From Liolophura sinensis (taxonomy: Eukaryota; Mollusca; Polyplacophora; Chitonida; Chitonidae): 64,000 nucleotides of DNA. The first letter of the stretch is position 1, and every line of letters begins with the position of its first letter. The stretch is taken from the NCBI RefSeq assembly GCF_032854445.1, contig NC_088307.1, positions 22,878,001 to 22,942,000 on the forward strand, written 5' to 3'. Shown one piece after another: positions 754 to 33,422 of the stretch. The notes under the pieces are model-generated. The model saw only the letters and a list, made by a program, of their open reading frames with translations, did no database searches and had not been told where the DNA came from. Both the position numbers and the translations under genes were made by a program.

Positions 754-3700
754 TCTCGCAGTGTGGGTTTGCTGGATGCAGACATCTATGGCCCCTCCAT
801 ACCCAAAATGATGAACCTGGGGGGAGGGGTGGAACTTACAGAACGTAGGTAGATTGGATATTGTTCAGTTATATCTTTGTAAAAAAACACTTTGTGGGGT
901 TGGTGGGTTCAATGCTTGTCTTTCAGTGACTGTTTTGAAGGTGTTTGTTCAATTCCAGTACAGGAACATACTCCTCACAGTGCATGCTTTATCATGCCAC
1001 TGCCACCACTAGACATGCTTGACCTTTGGGGCTTGTGCAACACACATAGGTTTGTTCAGGATTAGCCTCACCACTGGTGTCCTCGTGGAGAACTGTATAA
1101 TCAGCATTCATAAATAATATTGTAAAGTTTAGAATCAAAATGTTGTACATACTTGTGGTAAACAGAATGGAAGCGCATTATCCCAGTGACCTTGGTGTTG
1201 TTCAAGATCTCTGTACAACTTTGCTAGTGGTGGTAGTGATGTAACGGGAACGTAGAAAGTGGGAAATACAACGTCAGTGATATTGGCTCACACTGTAGGT
1301 GGGAAGGTCTGCCAGCAACTTGTGGATGGTCATGGGATTCCTATGGGCTCTGCTCGATATCCTCCAACAATAATGCTATAAGTGCTATATTCTTGAGTAC
1401 AGCCTAAAACACCAAATAAATAAATAAAAAAGCACTATGTGACAAGGAATCCCTGCTTCCTATGTTTTCAGGGACTTGGTGTGATGTATTTTCCTTTTTT
1501 CTGATTGATTCATTCAACTTATAAGTTAAAGAGTTGTTTGTGAAAATTGCTTAATTTCAGTCAAAAGTATTACTTTAAGGCCTTTGTGTACTTCTGAAAG
1601 TGCATCTTTACATACCAAACTGTAGTTAAAATAGTGAGCTCCAGGCTCTCCGGTTTTGTTCATCCCTAAAACTGATGGTGGAACCTTAGAAGGCTGTTGT
1701 TTGAGCACAGTGTAAAAACCCAGTCGGATGAATAAGATTTCATTTTACTGCTGAATTCCCCTTATGAAATCGGGGGCCTCCTTGGCACAGTTGGTTAGCT
1801 CACTAGCGCAGTCTAATGACCCAGGAGTCTCTCACCAATGTGGTCGCTGTGAGCTCAAGCCTAGCTCATGCTGGCTCCCTCTCCGGCCGTACGTGGGAAG
1901 GTCTGACAGCAACCTGCGGATGGTCGTATGTTTTTCCCAGGCTCTGCCTGGTTTCCACCCACCATAATGCTGGCCCTGCCATATAAGCGAAATATTCTTG
2001 AGTATGGCGTAAAACACCAACCAAATGAATAAATAAATAACTAAGACTGCTCAAGCAAACTGGTTAACTTTATGTTTGACAGAGATCCCTTTGAGTTACT
2101 TGGGGCAAAAATTTTTTAATTAATTTAAGTTTTGTTGAATTTTTGTTTCATGTTCACAGAGCAGTTGATGAAACCATTAGTGAATTATGGAATTAAGTGG
2201 TAGGTAGGTGTTTTCATTGTCCTTAGCATATCTTAATTTAGGCACAACGTCAATGTAATAATTTCTATTATATAAGCGCTTGACATCTTCTACGTTATAA
2301 TATATTTGTCGTAGTTGTAATTTTGGGGTAGTTTGACAAAATATAGAGATGCTTTCCTTCCCTTTTTCTACTTCAGCTGGTTTGCAGCATGTCTGTGGGG
2401 CATGTCTATGGCATATGATACCTGTATACATATTTATTAAGTGGTTTATTAATATTCAGAGCCATCAGGCCATTAGCCCACGTACAGGTGTGATAACAGG
2501 GATACATACAGAGTAACAGAAGCGTATAATACACATGTAGAGCTAGGTAAATATAAAATACAATTTTTGAGCAAAGATAGTGTAAACACAGGTAAACATA
2601 TGATGTAATTCTTGTTACAGAAATGTTATAAGCCTACGTGTAAACATAGGTGAATATATAAAACTATTCTTGTTGAAATTTCATAAAGAAATAGGAATTG
2701 TAAATTGTTATAATCAGAAGTTAAGGTCATGAAATATGTTAATCACAGAAAAAGCGTTAAAAAAGAATCCAGTGAACTGACCTTCTAAAAGATTGTTGTG
2801 AAGAAAAAATTTCTATGGAATGATTAGAACTCAGGTCATTATAGAAATTCATGGCTCGAGGGAAAAGTTTTCAAACGTTAATTCTAGTTGACTCAGGCCG
2901 GAAAGTTGCCATGTATCGTAAGGCCAAGGCAGGAAAATTAAAATTGACCTACTCTACTAGGTAAGGCAAGTCAACGACTCTATTTAGTCTGAGAGATACT
3001 TTTGGGTGGGGGACCATATAATCGACCCATGCTCTAAGTTGAAGGGAACTAAAGATCTGTACAAGGATATAAGTTACTTGGTTTTTGTAAAAGAAATGCA
3101 TGATCTCTTGAGAAAAACAAGCATTTAATAACCTTTTCTAACGGTATTGGTGACATGTACTCTGAAATTCAGATTACTGGCTAATGTTATCCCAAGATCT
3201 TTCACACTCTCGACTCTTTCAAGTGCATGTCCGTCTATGCTATAATTGGATATAATTTTGTTGGTCTTATTCCTGAATGATATGACACAACACTTGTCCA
3301 CGTTTAACTCAAGCTGTCAAACTGAACACCACAGTGTGAAACGTCACACTTCGTCCCCTGGGCACACACATAATCTGACACCTTGCCATTGCAGAACATG
3401 TTGTTATTGAACTGAGTTAAAGCGTATTCAGCTAAAATACGATCTGGTCCAACCGTAAGGCTTCAGCCCATTGTTTGTTGACCGCCACTGGATATCTGCA
3501 CGATTAAAGTCACCCTTTAGAATCTCAACATCTTGATCTGGGTCAGTGGCATTATATAATCGTGAAAGTGACAAATCTAGTTCAGACCACGTTTCTGATG
3601 TTGACCATGGCAGAATATACACGGATCCCAGGAAAACATTCACTTTTTGGAAATAAATTTGTTTCAGAACACCTCCCTCTTTCTGTGTATGACTAGTAGC

Positions 3701-6700
3701 AGTAAGACAGGTGTGACGGTCTTTTCTGAATGTTTTGTAGCTCCCTTTCAAGATTTCGGAGTCAGATATCTGAGCATGCAGCCAGGATTCGGTGATAGAT
3801 ATGAAATCGTAATTTGTTGCCACAGAGATTCACATTGAACTGTTTGAGTTTGACTGCACCCGATTGTCTGTTGCTTTCAGCATGACTATGGGGTTTGTGG
3901 TCTGTAATGCCTGTAAACGTATTTCCCTCACATGTAAGCATTGTTTGGGATTTTCAGCTTGACTATGGGGTTTGTCGTTTGTAATACCTGTAGACATTTT
4001 TGCCTCACATGTAAGCATTGTTTGTGGCTTTCAGCATGACTATGGGGTTTGTGGTGTGTGTTACCTGTAGACATATTTCCTTCACATATCAGCATTGTTT
4101 GTGGCTTTCAGCATGACTATGGGGTTTGTGGTCTGTAATACCTGTAGGCATATTTCCCTCACATGTAAGCATTGTTTGTTGCTTTCAGCAAGACTATAGG
4201 GTTTGTGGTTTGTAATACCTGTAGACATATTTCCCTCACATGGAAGCATTGTTTGTGGCTTTCAGCATGACTATGGGGTTTGTGGTCTGTAATACCTGTA
4301 GGCATATTTCCTTCACATACCAGCATTGTCTGTTGCTTTCAGCATTTCTATGGGATTTGTGGCCTGTAATACCTGTAAACGTATTTCCCTCACATGTAAG
4401 CATTGTTTGTGGCTTTCAGCATGACTATAGGGTTTGTGGTATGTAATACCTGTAGGCATATTTCCTTCACATATCAGCATTGTCTGTTGCTTTCAGCATT
4501 TCTATGGGATTTCTGGCCTGTAATACCTGTAAACGTATTTCCCTCACATGGAAGCATTGTTTGTGGCTTTCAGCATGACTATGGGGTTTGTGGTATGTAA
4601 TACCTGTAGGCATATTTCCCTCACATGTAAGCATTGTTTGTGGCTTTCAGCATGACTATGGGGTTTGTGGTCTGTAATACCTGTAGGCATATTTCCTTCA
4701 CATACCAGCATTGTCTGTTGCTTTCAGCATTTCTATGGGATTTGTGGCCTGTAATACCTGTAGACGTATTTCCCTCACATGTAAGCATTGTTTGTGGCTT
4801 TCAGCATGACTATGGGGTTTGTGGTATGTAATACCTGTAGGCATATTTCCTTCACATATCAGCATTGTCTGTTGCTTTCAGCATTTCTATGGGATTTGTG
4901 GCCTGTAATACCTGTAAACGTATTTCCCTCACATGGAAGCATTGTTTGTGGCTTTCAGCATGACTATGGGGTTTGTGGTATGTAATACCTGTAGACTTAT
5001 TTCCCTCACATGTAAGCATTGTTTGTTGCTTTCAGCAAGACTATAGGGTTTGTGGTTTGTAATACCTGTAGACATATTTCCCTCACATGGAAGCATTGTT
5101 TGTGGCTTTTAGCATGACTATGGGGTTTGTGGTATGTAATACCTGTAGGCATATTTCCTTCACATGTAAGCATTGTTTGTGGCTTTCAGCATTTCTATGG
5201 GGTTTGTGGTCTGTAATACCTGAAGACGTTTTTGCCCCACATGTAAGCATTGTTTGTGGCTTTTAGTATGACTATGGGGTTTGTGGTATGTAATACCTGT
5301 AGACGTATTTCCCTCACATGTGAGCATTGTTTGTGGCTTTTCGCACGACTATGGGGTTTGTGGTCTGTAATACGTGTAGACATATTTCTCTCACATGTAA
5401 GCATTGTTTGTGGCTTTCAGCATGACTATGGGGTTTGTGGCCTGTATTACCTGTAGACATATTTCCTTCACATATCAGCATTGTCTGTTGCTTTCAGCAT
5501 TTCTATGGGATTTGTGGCCTTTAATACCTGTAAACGTATTTCCCTCACATGTAAGCATTGTTTGTGGCTTTCAGCATGACTATGGGGTTTGTGGTATGTA
5601 ATACCTGTAGGCATATTTCCTTCACATATCAGCATTGTCTGTTGCTTTCAGCATTTCTATGGGATTTGTGGCCTGTAATACCTGTAAACATATTTCCCTC
5701 ACATGTAAGCATTGTTTGTGGCTTTCAGCATGACTATGGGGTTTGTGGTATGTAATACCTGTAGGCATATTTCCTTCACATATCAGCATTGTTTGTGGCT
5801 TTCAGCATTTCTATGGGATTTGTGGCCTGTAATACCTGTAAACATATTTCCCTCACATGTAAGCATTGTTTGTGGCTTTCAGCATTTCTATGGGGTTTGT
5901 GGTCTGTAATACCTGTAGACGTTTTTGCCCCACATGTAAGCATTGTATGTGGCTTTCAGCATGACTATGGGGTTTGTGGTATGTAATACCTGTAGACGTA
6001 TTTCCCTCACATGTGAGCATTGTTTGTGGCTTTTAGCATGACTATGGGGTTTGTGGTATGTAATACCTGTAGGCATATTTCCTTCACATATCAGCATTGT
6101 TTGTGGCTTTCAGCATTTCTATGGGATTTGTGGCCTGTAATACCTGTAAACATATTTCCCTCACATGTAAGCATTGTTTATGGCTTTCAGCATTTCTATG
6201 GGGTTTGTGGCCTGTAATACCTGTAAACATATTTCCCTCACATGTAAGCATTGTTTGTGGCTTTCAGCATGACTATGGGGTTTGTGGTTTGTAATACCTG
6301 TAGGCATATTTCCTTCACATATCAGCATTGTTTGTGGCTTTCAGCATTTCAATGGGGTTTGTGGTATGTAATACCTGTAGGCATATTTCCTTCACATATC
6401 AGCATTGTCTGTTGCTTTCATCACGACTATGGGGTTTGTGGTATGTAATACCAGTAGACGTATTTCCCTCACATGTGAGCATTGTTTGTGGCTTTTAGCA
6501 TGACTATGGGGTTTGTGGTCTGTAATACGTGTAGACGTATTTCTCTCACATGTAAGCATTGTTTGTGGCTTTCAGCATGACTATGGGGTTTGTGGCCTGT
6601 ATTACCTGTAGACATATTTCCTTCACATATCAGCATTGTTTGTGGCTTTCAGCATGACTATGGGGATTGTGGTCTGTAATACCTGTAGACGTATTTCCCT

Positions 6701-9700
6701 CACATGTGAGCATTGTTTGTGGCTTTTAGCATGACTATGGGGTTTGTGGTCTGTAATACCTGTAGGCATATTTCCCTCACACGTGAGCATTGTTTGTGGC
6801 TTTTAGCATGACTATGGGGTTTGTGGTATGTAATACCTGTAGGCATCTTTCCTTCACATATCAGCATTGTTTGTGGCTTTCATCACGACTATGGGCTTTG
6901 TGGTTTGTAATACCTGTAGACATATTTCCCTCACATGTAAGCATTGTTTGTGGCTTTCAGCATGACTATGGGCTTTGTGGTATGTAATACCTGTAGACGT
7001 ATTTCCTTCACATATCAGCATTGTCTGTTGCTTTCATCACGACTATGGGCTTTGTGGTCTGTAATACCTGTAGGCATATTTCCCTCACATGTAAGCATTG
7101 TTTGTGGCTTTCAGCATGACTGTGGGGGTTTGTGGTATGTAATACCTGTAGACGTATTTCCTTCACATATCAGCATTGTCTGTTGCTTTCATCACGACTA
7201 TGGGCTTTGTGGTCTGTAATACCTGTAGGCATATTTCCCTCACATGTAAGCATTGTTTGTGGCTTTCAGCATGACTGTGGGGGTTTGTGGTCTATAATAC
7301 CTGTAGACATATTTCCCTCACATGTAGGTATTCTTTGTGGCTTTCAGCATGTCTATGGGGTTTATGGTGGATGAGAAGTCTCCTATTGTCTGGCGAGGTC
7401 TGATGGTGATGTCAGCAATACAAAGGTTACTTCGACAGGTAAGCTATTTGAATGGGTAAGAGGCTACTGTGTCGGGTAAGTTATTCAGATTTGTAAGATG
7501 CTACTGCGACAGGTAAGCTGTTCTAATAGGTAAGAGGCTACTGTGACAGTGTGGCAGTGGTGAGAGTAATGGGTTGACAGCCAGGTGAGCTGTACATCAC
7601 AGATGTTAATTCTTAAGACAATAAGCAAAAACAATATCGTATAAATAATAAATAAATATATAATTAATGGGAGCGAGTTTGCAGTGCTTATTCCAGCAGT
7701 AGTTTAATGGTAATTTCCATTTAACTCAGTTGTTAGAGTGTTGGACATGAGGGGTGTGAGTACAAGTCCTGATATAAACAAATGTGAACAAGTTGAACAT
7801 TTTCAAATTACACCTGTCACTTGTGTTGTAGGTGGCCTGGGGTCCTCTAGATTACCTAGTGATTGACATGCCACCGGGAACGGGCGACGCCCAGCTGACT
7901 CTGTCTCAAAACATCCCTATTTCAGGTAAGGAGATACAAAACTACCCTATTTCCTCTAATTTTTGGGACAGATATTAGTAGTGCGGAAAGCAGAATATTA
8001 CATTTCTTTCCGAGCTTTTTGGAAAAGTAAAGATGTGAGTATGTTATTCATTAGATGGTCAAACCATGCGAGAAAAAGGTAACTGAATACTCCTGTTACA
8101 ATTACATGTACTCCTGCTGCAAGTACATGTACTCCTGCTACAATTACATGTACTCCTGCTACAATTTCATGTACTCCTGCTGAATTCCATGTACTCCTGT
8201 TACAATTACATGTGCACTGGCTAAAAGGAGCAGACAAGGCATGCCAGTAATTAGAAGAAATAGGGTACTGGTAATAAAAGAGATCAAATCACTGTTACTC
8301 ACATGACCCAAATATCATGTGGGATAAAAATCTGACTGAGTTGATTTAGAACTACTAAAGGGAGGTAATTGGTGGAGTTGTTACTTGAAAAATGCCAAGA
8401 AGAGAGACATCTGTAATTTTTCACATTTTCAAGTTACACTGTGCATACTGTGTGAATGTATGTCATATAGAGGTACAACATTTCCATTTGTTCATCAAAC
8501 TGTACTATATGTATAGTGTCAAATCCCAACTCAAAGAACACAACAGGAGATTTCTGGTAATGGAATATGAATTGAGCCCTGTTACAGTAGCCAAAACCTA
8601 TTTATTGGAAATTTCTCAGGAAATGATCAGGAGATTTATTTTTGTCATTTACTTAATTGGAACTCAAGAACATTTCACTTTTATGAGCATGGCCAGCGTC
8701 ATGATGGGAGGAAAACCAATGAGAGCCTGTCCATCTGCAGGTTGCTGCCAGATCTTCTCATGTACTGCTGGAGAAGAAGGAGCCAGCTTTATTATACTAG
8801 CGCCATATTATAATGTCATGATGTCTGTCCAAGATTGGTCTGTCTTTTTAAATTTCAATTTGGGCATGGATGAGATGAGCCCTTTTCAACAGAACTCCAT
8901 TAAGTGGAATTTTCATGAAGCTTCAAAGATGTGTTGGGGGCATGCTGAAAGCCACAGACAATGCTGAGGGGTTTTTTAATGGTTTTAGTAGGCTTAACTG
9001 GCATAGTCCTGAACAGAGGTGAATGAAAATCCACGTACAGAAAGGCATTCAGTTTACAGGTGTAGACCGGGGAAATATGCCAGCTTCTGATTACTCTCGT
9101 CTCTTTTCTATGATCTGGGAAAAAATTAAAAACTATCAGACATTTTAAACCTCATAATCTTTAAAATGTCTTTTTAGTTAATAAATGTCTTCCAAAACTA
9201 ATTCTCTGACAGAAAAATGTCCTAGTTATGGACAGCAATAAAAGTATGACCTGTATTAAACAGGTCTTCGCAACACACTTGTATAATGTGTAAATCAACA
9301 TTCACTGCACCTTGTATCCTATCATGCACAGGGTGCAAAGAAAGTGGCGAAAGTTTAAATAAGTGTACACAGGAGAAATCTAGGAGGCCATGATTGTTAT
9401 GTGTAATCATGTACTTTGAAAAAATACTCAAAGCTTTAGGTAAACTTAACTTTAGGTGAAATTCCGTTATAGCAACCTTTTTAATGGAAAATTGTTACGT
9501 TTTTTTTTTTTCAGGAGCTGTTATAGTGACGACCCCTCAGGACATTGCTCTTCTGGATGCGCGGAAAGGGGCAGAGATGTTCCGTAAAGTTGAGGTCCCC
9601 GTCTTGGGCCTTGTTCAGAACATGAGTGTATACATCTGCCCAAACTGTGGTCATCAAGAACATATATTTGGGCATGGTGGAGGTCATCGTGTGGCTAAGG

Positions 9701-12007
9701 ACATGGGCATGGATGTATTAGGTATTTGTGATTTATGTTGTGTGCTGTTTTGTTGTAACATTGTTCAGGCCTATTTGTATGCCTGTCTACATAGCCTTGG
9801 ATTTGTGGAAGGGGTGGGGCCATCGCGTTGCTAAGGACATGGGCATGGGTGAGCTATAGTAGCATGGCATACTGCTATTGTTCATGCCTCTCTGCCTGTT
9901 GTTCAAGTCCAGCTCATTCTGGCTTCCTTTCCGGCAGAACGTGGGAAGGTCTTCCAGCAACCTGCGAATAGTCGTGGGTTTTCCCCAGGCTGTGCCTGGT
10001 TTCCTCCCTTCATAATGCTGGTCGCCATCGTATAAGTGAAATATTCTTGAGTACAGCGTAAAACACCAATCAATAAATAAATAAATAAGTCTCAGCCGGT
10101 GAAGGACAAGGACATTATGTGAAATTGAATTACTCTTTGCTACACTTCCTGTTTGCCTTTTCCATCAGTGTGTACAGCACAAACATATTCACGAAAGTCA
10201 CATTAACTCTTGTCTCTGTGTTTCTAGGTGATGTGCCCCTCCACTTAAGCATCAGACAGACGTCTGACAGTGGGAAGCCGATAGTGGTGTCTGATCCAGA
10301 CAGTCCACAGGTTAGTGAGCCACAATTTCAGTCGTCATCATATGACTGAAAAATTGTTAAGTATGACGTTAAATCCCAAGCACTCACTCACTCACTCACA
10401 ATTTCAGTCTCTCTACAATCACATCAGTTAGGCCAGACAATGAGTATGTCACTACTCTTTTATAATATCAATTTATTTTTTTATTTGATTGGTGTTTTAC
10501 GCCGTACTCAAGAATATTTCACTTATACGACGGCGGCCAGCATTATGGTGGGAGGAAACCGGGCAGAGCACGAGGAAAACCCACGACCATGCGCAGGTTG
10601 CAGCCAAAACTTCCCACGTACGGCCGCAGAGGAAGCCAGCATAAGCCGGACTTGAGCTCACAGCTACCGCATTGGTGAGAGACTCATGGGTCATTACACT
10701 GCGCTAGCGCGCTAACCAATTGAGCTTATAATATCAAGGCAGGAACTATAGCTATATGCGATGTGCCTGATAAAATGAAGATGGTTCTGTTGTAGCTGCT
10801 AACAATCCTGACTTGTAGTCAACTGGATTTGGCTGTGGAGGAGTAGTTAATGTGTTTACCTTTCAGGAGGCTTGCTCTGAGTTACCTCCCTTGTTACACG
10901 ACAGTGACTATGATATAGCGCGAGATTAGTGTTTGAGACGTGAAGCTACAAGAAGTGGGACCCTGCCTGTTAAAGCATGTGATAACCTATGTAGGCTATG
11001 TGATGACAGGTAAATTATTTTCTAATAACAGCATGTGAAAGTACATGATAACAACCTTTAAGAGTGGTAGAAATGTCTCAAGATCTTAAATCAAGTCCAT
11101 GAATTTCAGCTTAAGAGCCTATTGTAATTAATTAGAGCCAGGATTTTAAAAATTATTTCCGAATAAATTTATAAAATATTTATATTAAATTTAAATATTT
11201 ATCTTAGGCTTTTCAAAATAAGTTTACAAAATTAAAATCTGCCATAAAGCTAAGTCTTCAATTACCTTATACCACTTTAGCTCCAAAATTTGTCATTATC
11301 CATTTTCTGAGGTCGCACCTAGTCACAGCTTTCTCCTAAAAACGCGCCTTTTAAACGAGAGAGTGAGTGAGGGGAGGTAATTCGGTGCAGCGGTTTTCCT
11401 TGTATGTTGTACATCATGCGATTTCAAACCTGGTCTTGGGCAGGCAATTTCTGTATTCTTTCCCTGTGACAGTTCATGGAGACAATAAGCCGTCAACAGT
11501 GGTCATATCATGGTATGGCTGTTTGTGCAGTCTGTTTGTTTAAGATCACTTTTCTCATGCCAGTGTGATCTGGATATCCATATGTCTTATTTGGGATTGT
11601 CGGTCAGAGCATCAGCACAACTGTAGCAATGAAAGCATGAGCAATTTACAAGGAGTACATTGTCTCCACTTGGTTTACTAGATTTCAAGCGTTCGTTTTG
11701 TGGTTGGACAGTAAACATGTATCAGTTTTTGTTGAACAAATCTTTAGACAATGTCGGCATTCAAAAAAACCCAGTGAAAACAGTTTGGAGATGTTAATTG
11801 CAAATTTTTTTTTTCTTACTTCATACAAATAATTTTGGATTTCATTTTTGTGTGCTACTTTTAATCTCTTGTTTTTTGGTTTCCACCCTTATTTTTTTGT
11901 TGTTGTTTTTTTCCTTAAAAGAAACTGTGTGATTTAATCTTCAGGCTATGGCGTACAGAAGTATAGCAGATGAGACTATCAAGCGGTTACCTCCCCCTTT
12001 GCAGTGA
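754..12007 (+). CDS. NUBPL: NUBPL, mitochondrial Fe-S cluster carrier P-loop ATPase (3' seven exons; 5' part outside window)
   Basis: Exons are 754-844, 2160-2199, 7348-7438, 7832-7925, 9515-9721, 10228-10310 and 11945-12007 (stop TGA). All introns are GT-AG and the phases join to one open frame of 222 residues. Visible Mrp/NBP35 motifs, in order: [17 protein letters not shown] after the missing P-loop, the NYGIKCMSMGF block across exons 2 and 3, the Walker B-type DMPPGTGD in exon 4, and the CPNC Fe-S ligand pair ([15 protein letters not shown]) in exon 5. The end, [10 protein letters not shown], matches the family C-terminus. Human NUBPL is about 319 aa, so roughly the first third, with the targeting peptide and the KGGVGKS P-loop, lies upstream of position 1. 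The family binds a 4Fe-4S cluster and helps assemble complex I in the mitochondrial matrix. The cytosolic NUBP1/NUBP2 fit less well because of the NYGI-MSMGF spacing and the C-terminus. Introns hold SINEs, a LINE relic, a MITE and a large splice-site-containing minisatellite. Confidence 0.95.
905..1100 (+). repeat. Interspersed repeat C, copy 1
   Basis: ACTCCTCACAGTGCATGCTT, CACTGCCACCACTAGACATG and CTTGACCTTTGGGGCTTGTG match, in reverse, the segment at 36600-36850. Family unknown. Confidence 0.7.
1295..1431 (+). mobile_element. SINE-A, 5'-truncated, diverged
   Basis: Matches the family from GTGGGAAGGTCTGCCAGCAA to the TATTCTTGAGTACAGCCTAA tail and (AAAT)n end. Confidence 0.85.
1773..2040 (+). 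mobile_element. SINE-A, full length
   Basis: Runs from GGGGCCTCCTTGGCACAG through the B-box region to TTGAGTATGGCGTAAAACAC and (AAAT)n. It lies in sense orientation in a NUBPL intron, ending about 120 bp before the acceptor of exon 2160-2199. Confidence 0.93.
2430..3826 (-). mobile_element. Decayed non-LTR retrotransposon (CR1/jockey-like LINE), internally deleted
   Basis: On the minus strand, 3826-3428 encodes an endonuclease-domain relic with [20 protein letters not shown], a FRKDR motif and [13 protein letters not shown]. About 3330-3125 encodes a reverse-transcriptase C-terminal relic with [18 protein letters not shown] and [14 protein letters not shown]. The catalytic middle of the reverse transcriptase is missing between them, so a deletion joined the two ends. 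A further 3'UTR-like part may reach about 2430. It sits in NUBPL intron 2200-7347, antisense to the gene, and is not functional. Confidence 0.75.
3862..7347 (+). repeat. 77-bp minisatellite carrying ~45 copies of the NUBPL 3' splice site and exon start
   Basis: About 45 tandem 77-bp units fill the end of the second NUBPL intron in this window and run straight into the true acceptor of exon 7348-7438. Each unit holds TTTGTGGCTTTCAG followed by CATGACTATGGGGTTTGTG and TGTAATACCTGTAG. The true junction reads CTTTCAG then CATGTCTATGGGGTTTATG, so about 21 nt of exon start plus the preceding intron end have been multiplied. Units differ at a few sites (GTATGT versus GTCTGT after the exon-like part; TTCACATATCAG versus CTCACATGTAAG), and pairs of variants alternate in places. 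The unit length is not a multiple of three, and the chains of 65-residue open frames across it are not genes. Confidence 0.97.
7665..7800 (+). mobile_element. tRNA-headed SINE fragment
   Basis: GGGAGCGAGTTTGCAGTGCT and AGTGTTGGACATGAGGGGTG share layout with the copy at 55390-55540. The A box is degraded (TAACTCAGTTG), so it is not a tRNA gene. Confidence 0.6.
7943..8267. mobile_element. MITE-like element in a NUBPL intron
   Basis: The left end TACCCTATTTCCTCTAATTT mirrors the right end AATTAGAAGAAATAGGGTA as an inverted repeat. Internal AAAAGTAAAGATGTGAG and TTATTCATTAGATGG match the element at 54638-54857. It contains the 21-bp repeat expansion. Confidence 0.75.
8086..8215. repeat. ~21-bp minisatellite inside a MITE-like element
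   Basis: Five to six units of ACTCCTGCTACAATTACATGT lie in NUBPL intron 7926-9514, inside the element at 7943-8267. Confidence 0.85.
8648..8790 (-). mobile_element. SINE-A, old and diverged
   Basis: The segment from ACTCAAGAACATTTCACTTT through GGCCAGCGTCATGATGGGAG to GAAGGAGCCAGC matches the antisense SINE-A body with many changes. Confidence 0.7.
8938..8968 (-). repeat. Orphan inverted fragment of the 77-bp NUBPL repeat
   Basis: On the minus strand this reads CAGCATTGTCTGTGGCTTTC AGCATG, a near-exact match to the acceptor part of the 77-bp unit, placed in a later NUBPL intron in opposite orientation. Confidence 0.75.
9806..9860 (+). repeat. Second copy of the 3' end of NUBPL exon 9515-9721 inside the following intron
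   Basis: The exon end CATCGTGTGGCTAAGGACAT GGGCATGG recurs as CATCGCGTTGCTAAGGACAT GGGCATGG about 136 bp downstream, followed by GTGAGC, a stronger donor match than the true GTATTT. The downstream intron also shares a TTGTTCAGGCCT-like segment (9761 and 9878), so this is a two-unit tandem duplication of the exon-intron junction. Confidence 0.85.
9900..10088 (+). mobile_element. SINE-A, 5'-truncated
   Basis: Starts at the B-box region (GTTCAAGTCC) and ends TTGAGTACAGCGTAAAACAC plus (AAAT)n. It lies sense in a NUBPL intron. Confidence 0.93.
10320..10405 (+). mobile_element. SINE-B 3' tail fragment at a NUBPL donor
   Basis: CAGTCGTCATCATATGACTG, AAAAATTGTTAAGTATGACG and (CACT)n begin about 10 bp after the donor of exon 10228-10310. 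Confidence 0.8.
10472..10725 (-). mobile_element. SINE-A with 12-bp TSD
   Basis: Reverse-orientation copy lacking about 12 bp of the tRNA head. It is flanked by a perfect TTATAATATCAA duplication (10460-10471 and 10726-10737). Antisense to NUBPL. Confidence 0.94.
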
Positions 12008-12449
12008 TCCATCATTGAATAAGCTCTAGTGACCTTGAGTGCCATATATTGACCTTGAGTGCCAGATTTTGGAGGGAAAGGGTGTGACAGGAGTCTTGTA
12101 CTGCAGCACCGGTACAAAAGAATGCTGACTACTGATAATTATTAAGTTCTTTCTATGTAATGATTCTGTACATCAGCTCTCAAAGCTGATGGACGCGTAC
12201 ATTATAAAATTCATTAAGTATTGGGATAAATGAAGAGTCAACTGTAGGAGTGGTGATAAGGGTTTGTATGAATCAAGGGGGATATTTCCTCTTGGTATAC
12301 TATAGGGCAGCTATAGGACAGAAATTATCTGAAGCGTTAAGTCCATGTAGGTGTACTAGTATTAGCTGGTCCTTTGTTTGCTGGATAAATTGTTCTTAGC
12401 CTTTTTGCACATACTAAGGCTATGTATCATTAAGGAGCATTTATTATGT

Positions 12450-12455
12450 ATTAAA
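12450..12455 (+). terminator. Possible NUBPL polyadenylation signal
   Basis: ATTAAA lies about 440 bp after the stop codon. No canonical AATAAA was found between the stop and this point. Weak evidence only. Confidence 0.2.
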
Positions 12456-13334
12456 TAGTAAATGATATGGTTTGGTGAACTTTGTATAATGTTGACAGAA
12501 TTTTGATATGTTACAAGGTTGCTGCCTGAAATTTGGTGTAGTTCTACAATAGTTTTCTTGCGAGAAAAATCTTTTTAAATAATGATGGAAACAGTACTTT
12601 AACTGACATTGTTTTTTGACTGAAAGTTGTGGCTCACCTTGTCATGTTTTAGTAGAAATCTCATGTTTTTAAGTCTTAGCAAATAGGAAAAAATATTTTT
12701 GTCATTTGTAAATTACATGCATGTGGAGGATTTGTATTAGTCTCGGTGCTAGTTTGCTAAATCATACAAACTTATGATCTTCATTGTACTCTTTGAACTG
12801 TTCCGATACCTAGTTAAATACGTGACTCAAAAGTGTGTATGACAAGCCGCGAATCTGTAATTTACATATATGTACATATTGTTTGTATACAACCAAATGT
12901 ATACTTTAAACATACTGATGAAGCTAATTTTGCTGTTCTAGTTCAATTCCTAACATCAAATTCCATAAAACTTCTGGACAAAAGTTTTGTGAGGCATATA
13001 AATTTCCTAAAATATTACTTTTGGTATCTTTGGTGCTGAACCTTTGGTGTTTCTCCAGTGGTATACCATCCTACCTTCGATCAAACACCTTTCAAGATAA
13101 ACAAAACTCACACAATCAAGGAACACCAGTAACTTTGTCATGAATGAAAATTTTAGGTCATCTACCAAAAGTGATAATTAAATGTGAGTCCTGGGGAGTT
13201 TCATTGTTGCTGGCCAACTAACAAGTCTGATTTGTCATATGCATTTATTAATCGTTAATTGAAGCCTGCATTGTTAACAAGTGATGTAAGATATTTTAGT
13301 AAACATATATTCATTTACTTCCATCTTTCATTTG

Positions 13335-13480
13335 TTTCTCTTTTTAATTTATATATTTACACAATCTATACATTTACACAGTTTGTATATTAACACAATT
13401 TATTTTTTTTCACAATTTATATTTTTAAATAATTTATATATTTGCACAATATCTATATTTACACAATTTAATATATTTGT
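13335..13480. repeat. AT-rich irregular tandem repeat
   Basis: Repeated ATTTACACAATTTATATA-like units are interrupted by the SINE at 13493-13744 and resume briefly at about 13745-13765 (TATATTTACACAATCTATA), so the SINE probably inserted into the array. Confidence 0.7.
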
Positions 13481-13492
13481 AGGGGTTTAACA

Positions 13493-20900: not shown

Positions 20901-23900
20901 GAACCATTATTATGCAGATTATATACTCTTACACAGAGACAATTTTAATGCACTGAAAGTGTCAATTTTGCTTACCGGTTCGGTGGCGCGTTTCCAGAAG
21001 AAGCCTAAGATGAAGACAGTACCCCACGGTGGACCCACACAAGACATGAGCATTTGCCAGTACTGCCACAGTTCTCCCCCTTGGGCAGCTTGCATGATGG
21101 GAATCCACAAGATGGCGCACCCAACCAATGCCAAAACGACAATCCTGTATAAATGGCCATACATGTTTTCAATTTTTGGGAGCATGTCGTCAACTTAACA
21201 AAAACTGGAAATTCACAAAAATTATAAGATATTGTATCAGTAGGCTATATTTATGAGACATTGTACTAACAGGCTTATATTTTGTTTTGAATAAAACAAT
21301 TTCCAAATAATGTGTGGCATCTCTAAGCTATTAAAGAGGCCTTTCAATAGAACAATCACAGAATCACACTAATCACAGAACCAATCCAAACTACTCAGCT
21401 TAGGGTGCTTTTGATTGGCTTTTGTTATCAGAAGAATATTTCACCCCCTAATAGTCAACAATTTCCACTCGCTGGCTTTCTTTCCACATGTAGAACGTTA
21501 CCTAGCTGTCCACAACCAACAGTTTCCACTCGCTGCCATCCTTTCTACATGCAGAACCTTACCTGTCCACAATCAACACTTCTCGCTGGCATTCTGTCAA
21601 CACGTATAACTTTACCCGCCAACAATCAACAATTTCATTTTACCCGCTCGCTGGTGTTCTTTCTACTTGGTTCAACTGACCTATCAACAATCAACAACTC
21701 TCACTCGCTGGTCTTCTTTCTAGATGTATACCCTTACCCGCCAACAAGCAACAATCCCCATTCGTTGGCCTTCTTTCAACATTTATAATCTTACCCGCTA
21801 ACAATCAACAATTCCCACTCGCTGCCAATATTTATATCAAGGATATTAAATTAAAATCCTTCATTCCAAGATTCTTAAATTTTACAGTAAGTACAGTTCT
21901 CTTACCATAAGTAAATGTGGTTGGAGTGTCGAGAATCTCTAATACTCTTGGCCTTCATAACCAGGGATTAGGTGCTGTGTACACACTTTGCATGAATCAT
22001 TCATAATTTCTTACTCCATACACTTTTTTTTACTTCTTTGGTCATTTGTATTAAACGTATTTTTGGAAAGTGATCGTACGGTAATTGACCAGGAATGTAC
22101 TTTATTGTTGACGATTGGTATACGGACATCTGTGCCTACGCCTTTATTTCTACATGTATCATTTTACCTGCCAACAATCGACAATTCTCAACCCCTGGCG
22201 TCCTTTTATACTACCAGCTTACCTGTCAACAGTCACCAATGTTTATTCATTCGCATACTTTCTACATGTATCGCCTAACCTACCAACAATCAACAATTCT
22301 CAGCTTCTGGCATCCTTTCTACATGTATCCCCTTACCTGTCCACAATCGGCAATTCTCGACCTCTGGTGTCTTTTCTACATGCATCACCTTACCTGTAAA
22401 CAATCAACAATTCTCAGCCCCTGGCGTCCTTTCTACATGTAACACCTAACCTACCAACAATTAACAATTCTCAGCTTCTGGCATCCTTTCTACATGTATC
22501 GCCTAACCTACCAACAATCAGCAATTCTCAGCCTCTGGCGTCCTTTCTACATGTAACACCTTACCTGTCCACAGTCAACAGTTCTCAACCTCTGGCGTCC
22601 TTTCTACATGCATCACCTTACCTGTCCACAATCAACAATTCTCAGCTTCTGGCATCCTTTCTACATGTATCCCCTTACCTGTCCACAATCAACAATTCTC
22701 AGCCTCTGGGGTCCTTTCTACATGTAACACCTTACCTGTCCACAATCAACAGTTCTCAACCTCTGGCGTCCTTTCTACATGCATCACCTTACCTGTCCAC
22801 AATCAACAATTCTCAGCTTCTGGCACCCTTTCTACACGTATCCCCTTACCTGTCCACAATCAACAATTCTCAGCCTCTGGGGTCCTTTCTACATGTAACA
22901 CCTTACCTGTCCACAATCAACAGTTCTCAGCCTATGCCGTCCTTTCTACATGTAACACCTTACCTGTTCACAATCAACAGTTCTCAGCCACTGGCGTTCT
23001 TTCTACATGCACCACCTTACCTGCCAACAATCAACAATTCCCACTCGCTGGCGTTCTTTCTACACCGCGTCCAGAGATCCATGGTAAAAATACTACTGGC
23101 GCTGTTGAAGACTGACGTCAGAGTGCTCATGCAAGCTGCAAACAACGCCGCCAACATCAAACCACGAATACCTGAAAGCGAAAATGAAAGTGTTGTGCAC
23201 TTTTCCTGCTTTCAGAATTGTATACAATAAACCAGTAACATTTGCCAGTTCATATGCACTATCCCATAACAATGTTGCAAATGTCAAGCGACGTGCCAAA
23301 ACTGTTACGTATACGCAATCTGTTGCCCTGGTTGCCCCTGAAACTTTGATGTGTACAAGGCTATTTTATTTCCGTTTTAGAATAAAGCGTTTGCAAGTTG
23401 CATTATATGAACTGGGGCTAGTTAGGCTCTTTTAAACTAAATATAGTTATATTTGTAGGTTAACATATTGGGTTAAAAACCCGTCAATTTATTATAAAAC
23501 AATAACTCTGCCGCTTTACTCAGCTGCCGCTTTACTCACCTGGCTGCAGAATTTTCAGCACAAGTACCGGATATGCAATGTTCGAACATCCAGCCGGGTT
23601 TCCACATATACACTCACAAGCTGCCGGATCCACACATGCTACTTCATCTGGCAAATAAAGACAATACTATTGCTGCCAAAGTAAAGGAACCTTAAGCGGA
23701 GAGTAGAGCTATCCATCTTGGATAAACTCGGGGGCATGTGTTGTATATGCATCGTGTTGAATATAGTCGCTACATTGCACATATGAATAGTTGCAATCAA
23801 ATCTCAAAATAAATACAGATTTTGATTATTTATTTGATTGATGTTCTACAAAGACATTTCACTTATACGATGGCGGCCAGCATTAGGGTGGGAGGAAACC

Positions 23901-26900: not shown

Positions 26901-27856
26901 CCCCCAGTGTTGTCGTTGATCTTGCAGGTCCTGAATTTAGGATAGCTTAGAAACCGCTGGTTACGGTGATGTAAAATGCTTCATAGTATCTAGACGGTAA
27001 TAGTCCTCACCCTCCAATCTCGACGCTGACAGTCGTTTTTTATAGTTCTAATACTGGCCAAAGACAAAAATACATTTCCAGGATAGAAATGAATTGAACT
27101 GTCGTACACAAATCATTATAGTGTAACGCTATGTCTTGTCTAAGCTGAGTTTTAGGTATAGTACTACACTTATTCACGCGTGACCCAGGAAACCCTATCT
27201 ACACTGTCAGCTAACCAGCGTCGATTCTGTATCCCTTTAATTAAAGACGCGTCCGACTGTACCAACTGTTGGACCCATGTCTCCGAAAAGAGTATAATGG
27301 TAACTTTCCAATTTCCCTCATGTCTGTATATCATTTTCCTCATGGAGCGATCAGATTTTGCGTAATGTATATTAATAACGTGTTATGAAATGGGAAAGGT
27401 TTCTGTTATTGAGGCAATGGCCGACCGGGAAATCATTAGCACCTAATCGCCTAACCTGTCATCGTAAAGGCGGCTGAGAATATGAGAATGATGGATCCTG
27501 ATAAATACATGCTCCATCCAAACAACATCTGCACAAACACAGCGCCTGCGTACATCTCTATCTGTAGAACAAAACAGATGGTAAGCAAATTTCTTATTGT
27601 TACTTGGGACGCTATAAACGTTAATTTAGAAAACATACCTGAAGATAGTAATTTAACTCCAAAGGATCAGTCATTGTCGTGAGCATAGAGTTATATGACT
27701 GGTTTATTTGGGCTGGTCGTAGGTTGGAAAGTTTGCCAGCAACCTGCGGATGGTCGTGGGTTTCCTCCGGGCTCTGCCCGGTTTCCTCCCACCATAATGC
27801 TGGCCGCCGTCGTATAAGTGAAATATTCCTGAGTACGGCGTAAAAAACCAATCAAA

Positions 27857-27899
<43 letters not shown>

Positions 27900-30800
27900 A
27901 TATGCAGTTACCATGAAAGCTTCAATATATTACAATGCCAAGTCAAAGCACCAAATGTATGGTTAAAAATGGTTGATCACGGGCATAACCAGACACCACA
28001 GACAAACCCCACTGATATCTTGGTGATCACGCACACAAACAGAAACAACAGACAAAACTCACCGATATCTAGGTGATCACGCACACAAACAGACACCACA
28101 CACAAACCCCACTGATATCTAGGCGATCACGCATACAAACATACACCACAGACAAACCCCACTGATATCTTGGTGATCATGCATACAACAAGACACAACA
28201 GACAAAACTCACCGAAATCTAGGTGATCACGCACACAAACAGACACCACACACAAACCCCACTGATATCTAGGTGATCACGCACACAACCGGACACCACA
28301 CACAAACCCCACTGATATCTTGGTGATCATGCATACAACAAGACACAACAGACAAAACTCACCGAAATCTAGGTGATCACGCACACAACCAGACACCACA
28401 CACAAACCCCACTGATATCTTGGTGATCATGCATACAACAAGACACAACAGGCAAAACTCACCGATATCTAGGCGATCACGCACACACCCAGAAACCATG
28501 CACAAAACTCAACGATATCTTGGTGATCATACATACAACCAGGCACCACAGACAAAGCTCACCGAAATCTTGGTGATCACGCACACAACCAGACACTACA
28601 AACAAAACTCACCGATATCTAGGCGATCACGCACACACCCAGAAACCATGCACAAAACTCACCGAAATCTTGGTGATCATACATACAACCAGGCACCACA
28701 GACAAAGCTCACCGATATCTAGGCGATCACGCACACACCCAGAAACCATGCACAAAACTCACCGAAATCTTGGTGATCATACATACAACCAGGCACCACA
28801 GACAAAGCTCACCGATATCTAGGTTATCACGCACACAACCAGACACCACACACAAACCCCACTGATATCTTGGTGATCACGCACACAAACAGACACTACA
28901 AACAAAACCCACCGATATCTTGGTGATCACGCACACAAACAGACAAAACTCACCGATATCTAGGCGATCACGCACACACCCAGAAACCACACACAAAACT
29001 CACCGATATCTTGATGATCACGCATACAACCGCAGACAAAGTTCACCGATATCTTGGTCATAACGCACACAATTAGATAATATAGACAAAACTCACTGAT
29101 ATCTTGGTGATCACGCTCACAACCAGACACTACAAACAAAACTCACCGATATCTTGGTGATCACGCACACAAACAGACACCACAGATAAAACTCACCGAT
29201 ATTTTGGTGATGATATAGACAACCAGGGACAAAACCGACAGGTAGATTCTCAGCCGCTTGCCTCCGTATCTTTTCTTCAGGTATTCAGGCATTGTATATA
29301 CCTAAAAATTGAAAAAAAGGATAAAATTCTAGGTATTTTTACTCTGTTAATCGTCTCTTTAAATTTTGCAAAGAAAGTTAATCATGATTCCACGATTTTA
29401 TTTAAGCATCGATGCACTATATTCTAAACTCTGGAGGTTGTATTTCCAACTAGACTAATTTACCTTTCCAGGATAACATTGTTCTTGCTCTAGTAGTAAT
29501 CAAACGGTAAGTCAAACGGTTTCAGGGTTTTATCTCTCCTGGTGATAGCCGAATAAAAAGCGTACAAAGTAAATTGGGTACAATCCCATTTCATAATCAT
29601 CGTATAGGTTACCATTCCCATCCACAATCTTTGGAAAGCAATTACCTGTATATACAAAATATTCACATTTTTCCTGGCCATTGTTTCCTGCCCCAGTCGC
29701 ATGATAATGAAAATTATCCAAAAAACATATTATCTCTATCTGACTTACCTAGCAAACCCTCTACAATAATTATTTCAAGTAATAAAATTCATCGATTATG
29801 GCTATTATTAATTGTCGTATATAATCGCGCCCATGTTAAAATGCACTGATTTTCTCCATCACTTTGTAAAGCGACGACACTAAAGACAAAAGGACGTCAC
29901 CACTATGTCTTAACTCGAAAATCTCCCTATAGATGTGGCCTGGGATTAACTTAACTCTAAATGCTTACCCCAGAAGCGATGAATACGGGAACAAAGATCC
30001 ACCCTAAGGCCAGGATAAATGGAATTGCCTAGAAATTCGACAAAAGCACAAAAAAACCCCGTCAGCTTGACGATCACTTAATTTGATGATTATTACAAAT
30101 CGATCTATCCTACACATGAAGTGAAATATGTTTCTTTACAAATAAATTCAACACTGGATTAAATTTCGCATTGCTACAATGTCCTTAATCCATGGAGATT
30201 ATATTTCCAACGGTACAGAAACTAGGATTCCACTATTACCGATGAAATAATGATTTTCTACTATTTGCATATCGCATGGTGTTGCATGGTCAAAAACTAA
30301 CATTTCTGATTCGTATATCAGCGAAATATTAATTACCTGTAACATTTTTAGAGACCGAAAATCTATTTCCTGCTGATGAAGTATGATCTTCCCATGTACA
30401 TTAAGAATTTGGGATTATATAAGCTAACGGTGAAATTTCGTTCCTTTCCTGCAGAAAAGACGTGTAGTAGCCTACTATTTGCATTTTTGAAATATGAAAT
30501 TCCATGGATAGACACTGGAATTCCGTTTTCTGATAATTAAATATGAGATTCTATTGTTGGAGAATGGAAATCTTTTTTTTTAAATTCTGAAATTATGAAG
30601 TTCACTGATACAGCATGGAATTCTTTTTCTTTAAACGTATGGCGTAAGGACAGTGAAATAAATATTTTTTATTAGCGAAATACGCGATTCCATGCTTAGG
30701 CCCTGAAATTTGTGTTTTTTTGTTTTTGTTTTTTTTTTATTTTTCTTTATCAGCGAAATACGTGATTTCATGCGTAACCCTTGGAATTCGTTTTCCTATT

Positions 30801-33422
30801 ATGTCCATATGACATATAATTTCATTTACAGATGTAGAAACTTCCTTTTTTCTTAATTGTTGATATACGAAATGCTATGACTGTTTTGTCATTTAATGTT
30901 GTATTACATGCCACTCAAAGATCATCCCGCCTATGCCCGAGGCTGCCGCTGTTCCCGCTAGACCAATGAACAATGGAGCCCCGATGTTACTGGCGTAGAT
31001 GGAGGCCCCGATCTGGAACAGGACAAAAATAGTAAGTACGTTACGTGGTCAGAGTATAGTAAATGATGGAATAGTTTCGTAACTCAGTGGTCAGAGTAGA
31101 GTTAATGATGGAATAGCTTGATGACTCAGTGGTCAGAGTAGAGTTAATGCTGGAATAGCTTGATGACTCAGTGGTCAGAGTAGAGTTAATGCTGGAATAG
31201 CTTGATGACTCAGTGGTCAGAGTAGAGTTGATGATTGAATAGCTTGATGACTCAGTAGTCAGAGTAGAGTTAATGCTGGAATAGCTTGATGACTCAGTGG
31301 TCAGAGTAGAGTTAATGCTGGAATAGCTTGATGACTCAGTGGTCAGAGTAGAGTTAATGATGGAATAGCTTGATGACTCAGTGGTCAGAGTAGAGTTAAT
31401 GCTGGAATAGCTTGATGACTCAGTGGTTAGAGTAGAGTTAATGATGGAATAGCTTGATGACTCAGTGGTCAGAGTAGGTTAATGATGGAATAGCTTGATG
31501 ACTCAGTGGTCAGAGTAGAGTTAACGATGGAATAGCTTGATGACTCAGTGGTCAGAGTAGAGTTAATGCTGGAATAGCTTGATGACTCAGTGGTCAGAGT
31601 AGAGTTAATGCTGGAATAGCTTGATGACTCAGTGGTCAGAGTAGAGTTAATGCTGGAATAGCTTAATAACTCAGTTGTCAGGGTGGGATTTAAACATGGA
31701 GAATATTGATAAATTTGTGCTTAATAGCTGGATTGACACCTATGCACAAACCTGGTTTCCATATCATCAGTGGTGTTAAAAACAGTGTCCAGTCATGTTG
31801 AGCCACGTGTATCTGGTCACACATTCATGAATCAAACAATTTTCACCATTCTTTAGAAAATATCTATGAAATGACTGAGTTCAAACTATGTCAAGCTAAG
31901 TACAACGGTGTCATGTAATATTAAAGGGAGTGACTGTTTAAATAAGTCTGTGGTCAGAGAAGAATTAAAATCTGGTGAATATCGATAAATCGATTGATCC
32001 AAAAGAACCATTTACATGTTGCAAAATGGAAGTTAAACTATGAAACACGGCCTCTTCAGATAACTGGTTGAGATATGTGTGCGGTCACACTTTCACGATT
32101 TAAACAATTTCTCAAACCAATCTTTACTTAAAATAACTATATGAACTAACTTCATGTTCATGAAGGTAATTTGCTGATAGGTCTGTTTAAAAAATTTACA
32201 AAAGTTAACTTTAACGGTGCTAACTAGTACGGTGGACAATGATGGTGTATCTGTCTTCTTTGTTCCTCGGTTGAAAAGTTAATCATAAAACATAAACATC
32301 ATGAATACGTCACCGGAATCCACGTCATGTTTTTCCCAGCCAAGAAGTATCCACGGGCATTTCCCTTCGCAGCTTTGAATGTAGCCTTATGAAACAGAAA
32401 GAAATTCTTTAAAAGTGTCCAAATATTCAGACAGTCGAGAGGACGTGGCAAGGTTATGTTTTTGTAGTCGTTTATTGTTTATCTGTCTGTCTATCAACAA
32501 GTTTATTTTCTGTTTTGGTTCTTTTCTCAAATATCCCCAGCTACGAACCCTATAAACATTTGTCTTTATTACATGAGCATGCCGTAAGTGGGAAGGTCTG
32601 CCAGCAAGCTTTATGTCTTATATTTGCAACTGACATGGACATTGTTTACGGACTGCGAGTTTGAAATTTGAATTGTCTAGAATATCGACTGTCCTGCATC
32701 AATGGAAACTGATGACTGTTTCTCTCATTCATGTTACCGGCTTTACTTTACTATTTACATAAATATTTCTTACATATTTCTTTGGGAATTGGGGTTTTAA
32801 GTTATTTTGGAAATGGGTCTCGTAGTTATCGACTTGGGGCCTTCCTATATGGTTTACGAGTAGAATGTCAGACTTGACGCTAAGATTAAGCATATCTTTC
32901 CGAGTTCACCATGACTTTTTCCATGACATGTAGCAGGACTGCACCATATATGCCGTGAAACATATTATTATATCACCCTGTAGACATTCACACGCTATTT
33001 TTAAACCATACGTGTCGTAGCAAACATTAATATACTAAAATAGATGTTCCGTGTCAATAATTGCAAGACGAATTTTTCCAAACAACGTTCAAAACCCCAG
33101 AGGACAATAGGAGTATTGTAGGCCCATATATTATGCGAAATCCCTATATCCAGAGAAAAGTTTTCAAGAACGTCCAGAAGATGCAAGAAATGTTTTATAG
33201 GCTCGTCATTTTAATCTATCTCCAAATCGTTTACAATACTAGTTTATAAGTTGTCATCAATCAAAAATATATATTTAAATACATATCTTTGTACACACAT
33301 TCCCTGACAGCCATACTCACCCATGCGCCTACGATAAGGACAACCAAGAAGTAGAGGCCTATCGTCAAACTATCCCCCCAGTGGAGAGTGTAGATTGGGC
33401 GAGGAGATGAGCACTGGTCCAT
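17945..33422 (-). CDS. SLC5/SGLT-type sodium-coupled sugar (or related solute) symporter, complete, 15 exons
   Basis: Exons in transcript order: 33422-33321, 32385-32314, 31012-30908, 30028-29969, 29301-29197, 27561-27456, 26076-25996, 25790-25582, 24674-24539, 23647-23540, 23171-23021, 21144-20976, 20540-20328, 20084-19985, 18162-17945. All junctions are GT-AG, phases agree, and the total is 1935 nt (644 aa; SGLTs are about 590-680). SLC5 landmarks: [69 protein letters not shown] with [34 protein letters not shown] and [25 protein letters not shown] has two N-glycosylation sequons in the loop where SGLT1 is glycosylated. A charged cytoplasmic linker (PVDDDETDD) precedes a last hydrophobic helix ([17 protein letters not shown]). 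A plasma-membrane Na+/solute LeuT-fold transporter is expected. The ATG lies one base after TTTCCAG, so a 5'UTR exon may lie upstream. The exact SLC5A paralogue and substrate cannot be told; several sugar-contact positions differ from human SGLT1. Confidence 0.93.
19135..19770. repeat. Degenerate tandem repeat in the last part of the SGLT gene
   Basis: Loosely repeated blocks contain GAAATTTAATCAAAATGA, GAGCATGTCGTCCAAATTAA and TTTTAGGGGAGACTG at irregular intervals. One GAGCATGTCGTC block also lies at about 21179, beside the acceptor of exon 21144-20976. The units are too diverged to count exactly. Confidence 0.5.
19535..19615 (-). repeat. Degenerate second copy of the acceptor region of SGLT exon 20084-19985
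   Basis: The plus-strand segment GTGACCCGATCTAACCGAC at 19541, followed by AAAATGGGCAAGC and a CCATATG stretch, matches the region at 20071-20145 that spans the exon's first bases and its acceptor at roughly 80 percent over about 70 bp. The acceptor AG has become GG in this copy, so it should be inactive. It lies downstream of the exon in the transcript. Confidence 0.7.
21424..23020 (-). repeat. 57-bp minisatellite carrying ~24 copies of an SGLT exon end and its 5' splice site
   Basis: The units lie in two blocks, about 21424-21835 (diverged) and 22140-23020, in the intron after SGLT exon 23171-23021. On the minus strand the true exon ends TAGAAAGAACGCCAGCGAG, TGGGAATTGTTGATTG, TTGGCAG, then the donor GTAAGGTGGTGCATG. 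Each unit repeats TAGAAAG(G/A)(A/G)CGCCAG, GAATTGTTGATTGTGGACAG and GTAAGGTG(T/A)..CATG, so about 42 of the 57 bp are exon-derived and every unit keeps a near-consensus donor. The distal block keeps CCAGCGAGTG as in the exon, while central units have CCAGAGGCTG. About 300 bp of non-repeat sequence separates the blocks. Confidence 0.95.
23825..23937 (-). mobile_element. SINE-A, 3' part
   Basis: TTATTTATTTGATTGATG to the CCGCAG segment, reverse orientation, sense to the SGLT gene. Confidence 0.85.
24110..24420. repeat. Repeated GTGTGACCATTTGCCAGC segments in an SGLT intron
   Basis: Three segments (about 24115, 24260 and 24328) share GTGTGACCATTTGCCAGC, TATCACACTGTCTTCGCTGC. Related, more diverged segments occur at about 26365-26420 and 26810-26890 (TATCACACTGTTGTCGTTGC), so this is a small dispersed family of unknown nature. 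Confidence 0.6.
27718..27900 (+). mobile_element. SINE-A, 5'-truncated, long (AAAT)n tail
   Basis: Runs from CAGCAACCTGCGGATGGTCG to CCTGAGTACGGCGTAAAAAA and about 14 AAAT units. Antisense to the SGLT gene and adjacent to the 50-bp array. Confidence 0.92.
27971..29196 (-). repeat. 50-bp minisatellite carrying ~24 copies of another SGLT exon end and donor
   Basis: Tandem units of about 50 bp lie directly after SGLT exon 29301-29197 in the transcript direction. On the minus strand the exon ends CTGGTTGTCTATATCATCAC then CAAAATATCG and the donor GTGAGTTTTATCTGTGGTG. The units read CTGGTTGTGTGCGTGATCAC, CAAGATATCG, GTGAGTTTTGTCTGTGGTG. About 24 of 30 exon-end bases match, and the intron half is nearly identical. 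Variants include CCTAGATATC for CCAAGATATC and GTGGGGTTTG for GTGAGTTTTG, so some units have lost the donor GTGAGT. Confidence 0.93.
31045..31690. repeat. 42-bp minisatellite upstream of an SGLT acceptor
   Basis: About 15 units of TGGTCAGAGTAGAGTTAATG CTGGAATAGCTTGATGACTC AG. The array begins about 30 bp upstream, in the transcript sense, of the acceptor of exon 31012-30908. On the minus strand each unit contains CTATTCCAG, similar to the true acceptor CTGTTCCAG, but no exon sequence is repeated. Confidence 0.92.

Follow-up and report, generated by a model that had tools for sequence, protein, structure and literature searches.

Junction-spanning minisatellite arrays in introns of NUBPL and SGLT-family genes of the chiton Liolophura sinensis

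Tandem arrays whose units contain the end of an exon together with its splice site occur in the introns of NUBPL and of an SGLT4-like transporter gene in the chiton Liolophura sinensis, and further junction-spanning cases are present in SGLT paralogues of the same genome. We consider these arrays to be, very probably, minisatellites of the mirage type, founded by chance duplications that straddled a junction and then grown by ordinary repeat turnover. The window, by which we mean the entire stretch of 64,000 nucleotides analyzed (contig NC_088307.1, positions 22,878,001 to 22,942,000), belongs to an assembly that, according to the accessible part of its report, was HiFi-based and published as Liolophura japonica (PMC11068029), with the species later corrected to L. 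sinensis (PMC12441733). NUBPL lies on the plus strand and the transporter gene, with 14 modeled exons, on the minus strand, and the introns of both models are GT/AG with consistent phases. In protein searches, the SGLT model (572 residues) aligned at full length and 100% identity to a 644-residue NCBI protein, "sodium/glucose cotransporter 4-like [Liolophura sinensis]" (P0001), and the NUBPL model was 99% identical over 100% of its length to an NCBI NUBPL-like protein of L. sinensis (P0121). The features discussed below are collected in Table 1.

Table 1. Exons, arrays and copies at or near NUBPL and SGLT junctions, in positions of the window
Feature	Position	Strand	Details
Older isolated copy of NUBPL 77-bp unit	about 2378..2443	+	seen by eye; separated from the main array by a 1.4-kb stretch
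NUBPL acceptor array	3863..7329	+	45 copies; 77-bp unit of intron end plus ~24 bp of next-exon start; from TRF and copy list
Authentic NUBPL exon	7348..7438	+	91 bp; founder of left array and small right array
NUBPL donor array	7434..7549	+	37-bp unit x 3.1; exon end and donor
Copy of NUBPL exon stretch 9676-9715	9813..9851	+	score 52; best of 1000 random placements 29
Dispersed copy of SGLT acceptor junction 20133-20071	19605-19543	-	63 bp; junction included, AG lost
SGLT donor 23021 array	21433..23020	-	57-bp unit, 22 copies; interrupted at about 21840-22155
Authentic SGLT exon 11	23021..23171	-	last 45 bp form exon part of 57-bp unit
16-bp doubling at SGLT donor 23540	23508..23542	-	3 exon bp
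SGLT donor 29197 array	27974..29196	-	50-bp unit, 24 copies; 15 exon bp
Authentic SGLT exon 5	29197..29301	-	last 15 bp (ITKIS) form exon part of 50-bp unit
42-bp x 15 array	31045..31681	-	32 bp upstream of SGLT acceptor 31012; contrast case

The array at NUBPL acceptor 7348 was described in a preliminary description of the window as holding about 45 copies, and the 45 copies that we counted do carry both exon sequence and the splice site. Their junctions read TTTCAG/CATGACTATGGGGTTT or similar (the slash marking the exon boundary), as compared to TTTCAG/CATGTCTATGGGGTTT in the authentic exon, which encodes MSMGF. Within the 24-bp exon part, 14-20 of the 24 positions match the authentic exon, while 3000 random positions gave a mean of 6.0 matches and a maximum of 15, and the AG is intact in 40 of the 45 copies. 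The other end of the same exon bears the small donor array at 7438, overlooked in the preliminary description, in which TTACTTCGACAG/GTAAGC recurs as CTACTGCGACAG/GTAAGC. The stretch at 2444-3862, which divides the old isolated copy of the 77-bp unit from the main array, looks by eye like a putative LINE endonuclease fragment on the reverse strand.

In the transporter gene, the array at donor 23021 is real, with 22 copies counted rather than the approximately 24 first reported, the first at 23008 and the last at 21489 over about 1.6 kb, each with up to 45 exon bp (a further listed row, at 22035, was rejected as a copy of the 57-bp unit). The GT is present in all 18 scored copies of the 22, one of the four unscored copies, at 21550, having lost it, and no position of the unit is better conserved than this dinucleotide. 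Identity of the exon part to the authentic exon is 31-37 of 45 positions, with no trend along the 18 copies scored. At donor 29197, for which about 24 copies had likewise been claimed, there are indeed 24 copies of a 50-bp unit; 21 of the 22 scored retain GT, with none of the 50 unit positions better conserved than the T and 23 better conserved than the G. By an approximate score matrix, the donor score equals that of the authentic site in 10 of 18 copies at 23021 and 9 of 22 at 29197. The doubling at donor 23540 had also been overlooked.

Two single copies that had been listed alongside the arrays fared less well. The copy attributed to NUBPL donor 9721 is a real copy of exon sequence, but it lacks the last 6 bp of the exon and so does not span the junction, and it was dropped as a junction case. 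The copy of SGLT acceptor 20084 does include the junction, but it is not in tandem, lying 528 bp away beyond the exon. Single local copies of this kind are weak evidence because, of 300 intronic positions drawn at random outside arrays, 45 also have a local direct copy at the scan threshold. Arrays plainly exceed chance; single local copies do not. The array at 31045-31681 was considered as a mirage and rejected, its unit being neither junction-spanning nor in possession of exon sequence. Altogether, 32% of the intron sequence of the two window genes, NUBPL and SGLT, lies in arrays.

Elsewhere in the window, positions 34000-62111 of the minus strand hold what we take, from our own reading, to be a procollagen galactosyltransferase-like (COLGALT-like) gene, with a PF01755 match at 46079-46192 in its region. 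This gene lies among TRF arrays at 36996-38220, 47224-48257 and 56889-57605. Dispersed tRNA-like elements, which presumably resemble molluscan SINEs, lie at 430-640, 1770-2030, 9895-10080, 10470-10720 and 27715-27900. There were no Rfam matches in the window.

The recurrence of junction-spanning repeats, a central claim of the preliminary description, is borne out by SGLT paralogues outside the window. A genome search with PF00474 yielded 89 matches and thirty 3-kb loci, three of them inside the window, after which seven paralogue stretches and one more were taken. Stretch L069 was picked because L014 had shown an array, and L070-L075 were picked with the TRF lists of overlapping loci already known, so the choice was not blind; the cases in L036, L072, L070, L024 and L020, however, all lie within family-search loci, which were obtained before any array was inspected. 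Probing with the SGLT model located 171 SGLT junctions, those of the window among them. In L069, a 68-bp unit repeated 5.7 times was found at the donor of exon 7 and a 129-bp unit repeated 9.2 times at that of exon 10; further donor arrays lie at exon 12 of L024 (a 39-bp unit, with 26 copies in the scan) and at exon 11 of L070 (16-bp units). In L036, the 60-bp exon 4 and its donor recur downstream in degenerate copies, often ~65 bp apart (1827-3014), which are possible raw material for new exons. A 55-bp array sits directly at the donor of L076 exon 7, with all ten listed copies lacking a GT in register. Weaker donor cases with one or two copies are L072 exon 10, L020 exon 11, L069 exon 9 and L026 exon 2. 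TRF periods were 77, 37, 57 and 50 in the window and 68, 129, 126, 39 and 16 in the paralogues, and at exon 11 alone different SGLT genes have a 57-bp unit, a 16-bp unit or a single degenerate copy at 64 bp. Since the arrays sit at other introns in other genes, or at the same intron with other units, they represent separate events, as was originally proposed. Long arrays away from junctions were also observed (L076:3011-4630, 32 bp x 50; L073:7133-9000, 38 bp x 49), showing that minisatellites accumulate strongly in these genes.

The copies leave no trace in three NCBI protein models. Array-derived residues are absent at the studied junctions in the NCBI proteins P0001 (SGLT), P0046 (the L069 paralogue) and P0121 (NUBPL), and P0046 runs from L069/L014 exons 7 and 10 directly into the exon that follows each, skipping the intervening arrays (5.7 and 9.2 units). 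At the level of these three protein models, then, the copies are skipped and the authentic junctions joined.

The preliminary description had further proposed that duplications are seeded at junctions, a claim for which the support is weak. Arrays outside the window were counted by founding unit, which is fairer than coverage because arrays grow by adding units. The count comprised 62 TRF arrays over 188 kb with 99 donors and 99 acceptors, an array being scored as spanning if 6 or more exon bp lay within it; the L069/L014 array was first cleared of pseudo-donors, and the L024 exon 12 array falls outside the count, as TRF stops 37 bp short. Five of the 62 arrays spanned a donor versus 1.10 expected (P 0.0055), and by TRF none spanned an acceptor, versus the same expectation of 1.10. 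When L069, the stretch selected for its array, was left out (and with it the L014 array, whose real donor lies in L069), donor-spanning arrays numbered 3 of 60 versus 1.02 expected (P 0.084). Arrays spanning or within 12 bp of a donor numbered 8 versus 1.97 (P 0.001), or 6 versus 1.83 without L069 (P 0.011). One of the five spanning cases, L056, was counted as such though its donor is only guessed; without it there were 4 versus 1.10 (P 0.026), and with L069 also left out 2 versus 1.02 (P 0.27), or 5 spanning or within 12 bp (P 0.039). In the window itself, which is the discovery region, three of eight arrays had at least 6 exon bp at a junction versus 0.60 expected (P 0.023), the eight having been entered by hand from the TRF list with 21529-23064 merged into one.

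Present-day coverage does not mark junctions as hotter than introns. Tandem duplications cover 6-15% of bases at donors and 8-23% deeper in the same introns, depending on the loci left out, and about 2-4% at acceptors. A spanning local copy was present at 5 of 39 junctions in the window versus 154 of 393 random intronic positions. In the SGLT scan, which leaves aside three pseudo-donors lying within one array, a spanning local copy was present at 11 of 83 donors (two of the 11 from the window and three from L069) versus 3 of 85 acceptors (one of the three in the window; P 0.027, Fisher). This modest contrast loses significance without the window and L069 (P about 0.19; Fisher, rough denominators). 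The 11 of 83 donors are not above the random control of 45 of 300 (P 0.86), although the multi-copy cases stand out. A second family, p450, was sampled at 23 of 30 loci: L039-L042, L046, L049 and L055 were omitted for a match in an open frame of >500 residues, L043 and L068 were kept despite such a frame, and the junctions are guesses based on where the HMM matches end and on an approximate donor score. There was no clear mirage among these 23 loci. At L056:1755-1791, a perfect 18-bp repeat of 2.1 copies, its length a multiple of three, lies at the end of the p450 match. We regard the donor excess at founding as a hint and not a proof.

How the arrays arose can be weighed on this evidence. That array preceded exon, the exon ends deriving from a pre-existing satellite, is scarcely credible. 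Both SGLT exon parts (ITKIS and RKxASExELxIVGR) fall within the alignment to human SGLT1, and NUBPL is conserved across many animals in the protein search, so that the exon parts contained in the units are ancestral coding sequence. In a genome search covering 609,464,459 bases in 632 contigs, in which the best candidates were scored and very common words skipped, 44 of 44 listed matches of the NUBPL unit and 10 of 10 of the SGLT 57-bp unit were local. The exon founded the array and not the reverse because the exon parts are conserved coding sequence and the listed unit matches are local; nor did these matches reveal a dispersed satellite or transposon-borne repeat. A false expansion of repeats during assembly is likewise highly improbable: repeat arrays are error-prone, but the assembly is HiFi-based, according to the accessible part of its report (PMC11068029), and the copies are not identical tiles, with TRF matches between neighbors of 87, 83 and 79% in the three long arrays. 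We also find it very unlikely that arrays are kept by selection as regulators or buffers of splicing, as the preliminary description had suggested. The mostly intact GT in scored donor copies (18 of 18 at 23021, 21 of 22 at 29197) and the many copies whose approximate donor score equals the authentic one would fit such a role. However, in the NUBPL acceptor array the AG is unprotected, 18 of the 77 unit positions being better conserved than the A and 58 of 77 than the G, the ten listed copies in L076 have no GT in register with the donor, and splicing at one of the downstream copies of 23021 would bring an in-frame stop immediately (AGG TAA). The conservation of GT at donor arrays settles nothing on selection.

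A junction-specific mutational process, in which co-transcriptional breakage, R-loops or microhomology within the donor consensus start duplications at 5' splice sites more often than elsewhere in introns, is a more serious alternative, albeit one that we consider improbable. It would account for the five donor-spanning arrays versus 1.10 expected and the eight spanning or within 12 bp versus 1.97, as well as for arrays that start a few bp from donors (L076 exon 7, L070 exon 11 and 23540 in the window). Against it are the fall of the excess when the doubtful L056 and the array-selected stretch are left out (to 4, then 2), a coverage at donors that is not above that of deeper intron, a frequency of spanning copies at donors no higher than at random positions, the lack of acceptor-spanning TRF arrays outside the window, and a small sample from two gene families. 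The broader statement is that 5' splice sites are preferred founding points of minisatellites, with duplications that start in the final few tens of exon bases and extend into the intron arising or surviving several-fold more often than elsewhere, while 3' sites are spared, so that introns grow from the donor end. It is likewise unlikely, and is weakened by the doubt over one of the five spanning cases and by a donor scan that does not exceed the random control.

Under chance founding followed by turnover, the explanation that we prefer, a small tandem duplication would happen to straddle an exon–intron boundary and thereby found an array, which would then grow and drift on the intron side by ordinary repeat turnover. 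The arrays would last because the authentic site prevails over its copies. At a donor, that site is transcribed first in the series and adjoins the real exon, and would be favored on both counts; at an acceptor, only exon definition could favor the last of the series, which may be why acceptor arrays look rarer. No function would be required, since the genome duplicates short intronic segments heavily and those that touch donors would be tolerated. The NUBPL acceptor array runs against this proposed rule of donor tolerance and demonstrates that acceptor arrays can exist. In addition, the frequency of donor-spanning arrays is 2- to 5-fold that predicted by random founding, so chance founding may not explain everything.

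Although suggested at first to be undescribed, the process is a known one. Mirages are known from amphioxus (lancelet), where junction-spanning minisatellite arrays are reported to leave splicing undisturbed, and in the accessible parts of those reports the resemblance is close: tandem minisatellite-like units span a boundary with coding sequence, their copies on the intron side; many copies keep AG or GT (lost here in L076); 5' and 3' boundaries can both be affected, with unit lengths of 10-160 bp in amphioxus; and the copies stay outside the product, here as judged from the three NCBI protein models. The chiton arrays differ in their mollusc host, in having up to 45 copies versus 3 and 6 in globin, in recurring across one gene family and in a suggestive donor bias. 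Length polymorphism, somatic instability and homogenization of central copies with exclusion of the edges are described for amphioxus, the instability at Adh3, while the chiton arrays are known from one haploid assembly. Internal tandem repeats in human segmental duplications, as far as the accessible text describes them (PMC2812944), are also minisatellites at exon–intron boundaries of paralogous genes, but they alter splicing and can form new introns, whereas the three chiton protein models are unchanged. Intron gain by tandem duplication, to judge from the available portion of PMC4974935, likewise involves tandem duplication of a segment bearing a splice site; the chiton arrays, in contrast, lengthen existing introns. 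Ordinary intronic minisatellites, such as that at 31045-31681, share the size range and the intronic location, but their units lack exon sequence; such minisatellites are also reported from introns of earthworm metallothionein and of C. elegans, with no boundary-spanning units described in the accessible parts of the reports (PMC12783039, PMC4039745). Among the literature matches listed, which were mostly titles and the beginnings of abstracts with few subscription journals, there was no mollusc report of boundary-spanning arrays. Against that background, the new elements are the mollusc lineage, the recurrence within one gene family and a bias toward donors that is so far suggestive.

The many mollusc cases imply that the process is not confined to the lancelet lineage. 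If 5' splice sites were indeed preferred founding points, mirages would be a widespread, polarized route of intron growth in animals beyond lancelets. The arrays are also natural experiments in splice-site choice, with dozens of near-equal donors of which, by the protein models, the exon-proximal one is used, and a "first transcribed, first used" rule would lead one to expect the asymmetry between donors and acceptors. Lastly, they provide a tangible source of intron lengthening by repeats and, potentially, of intron gain.
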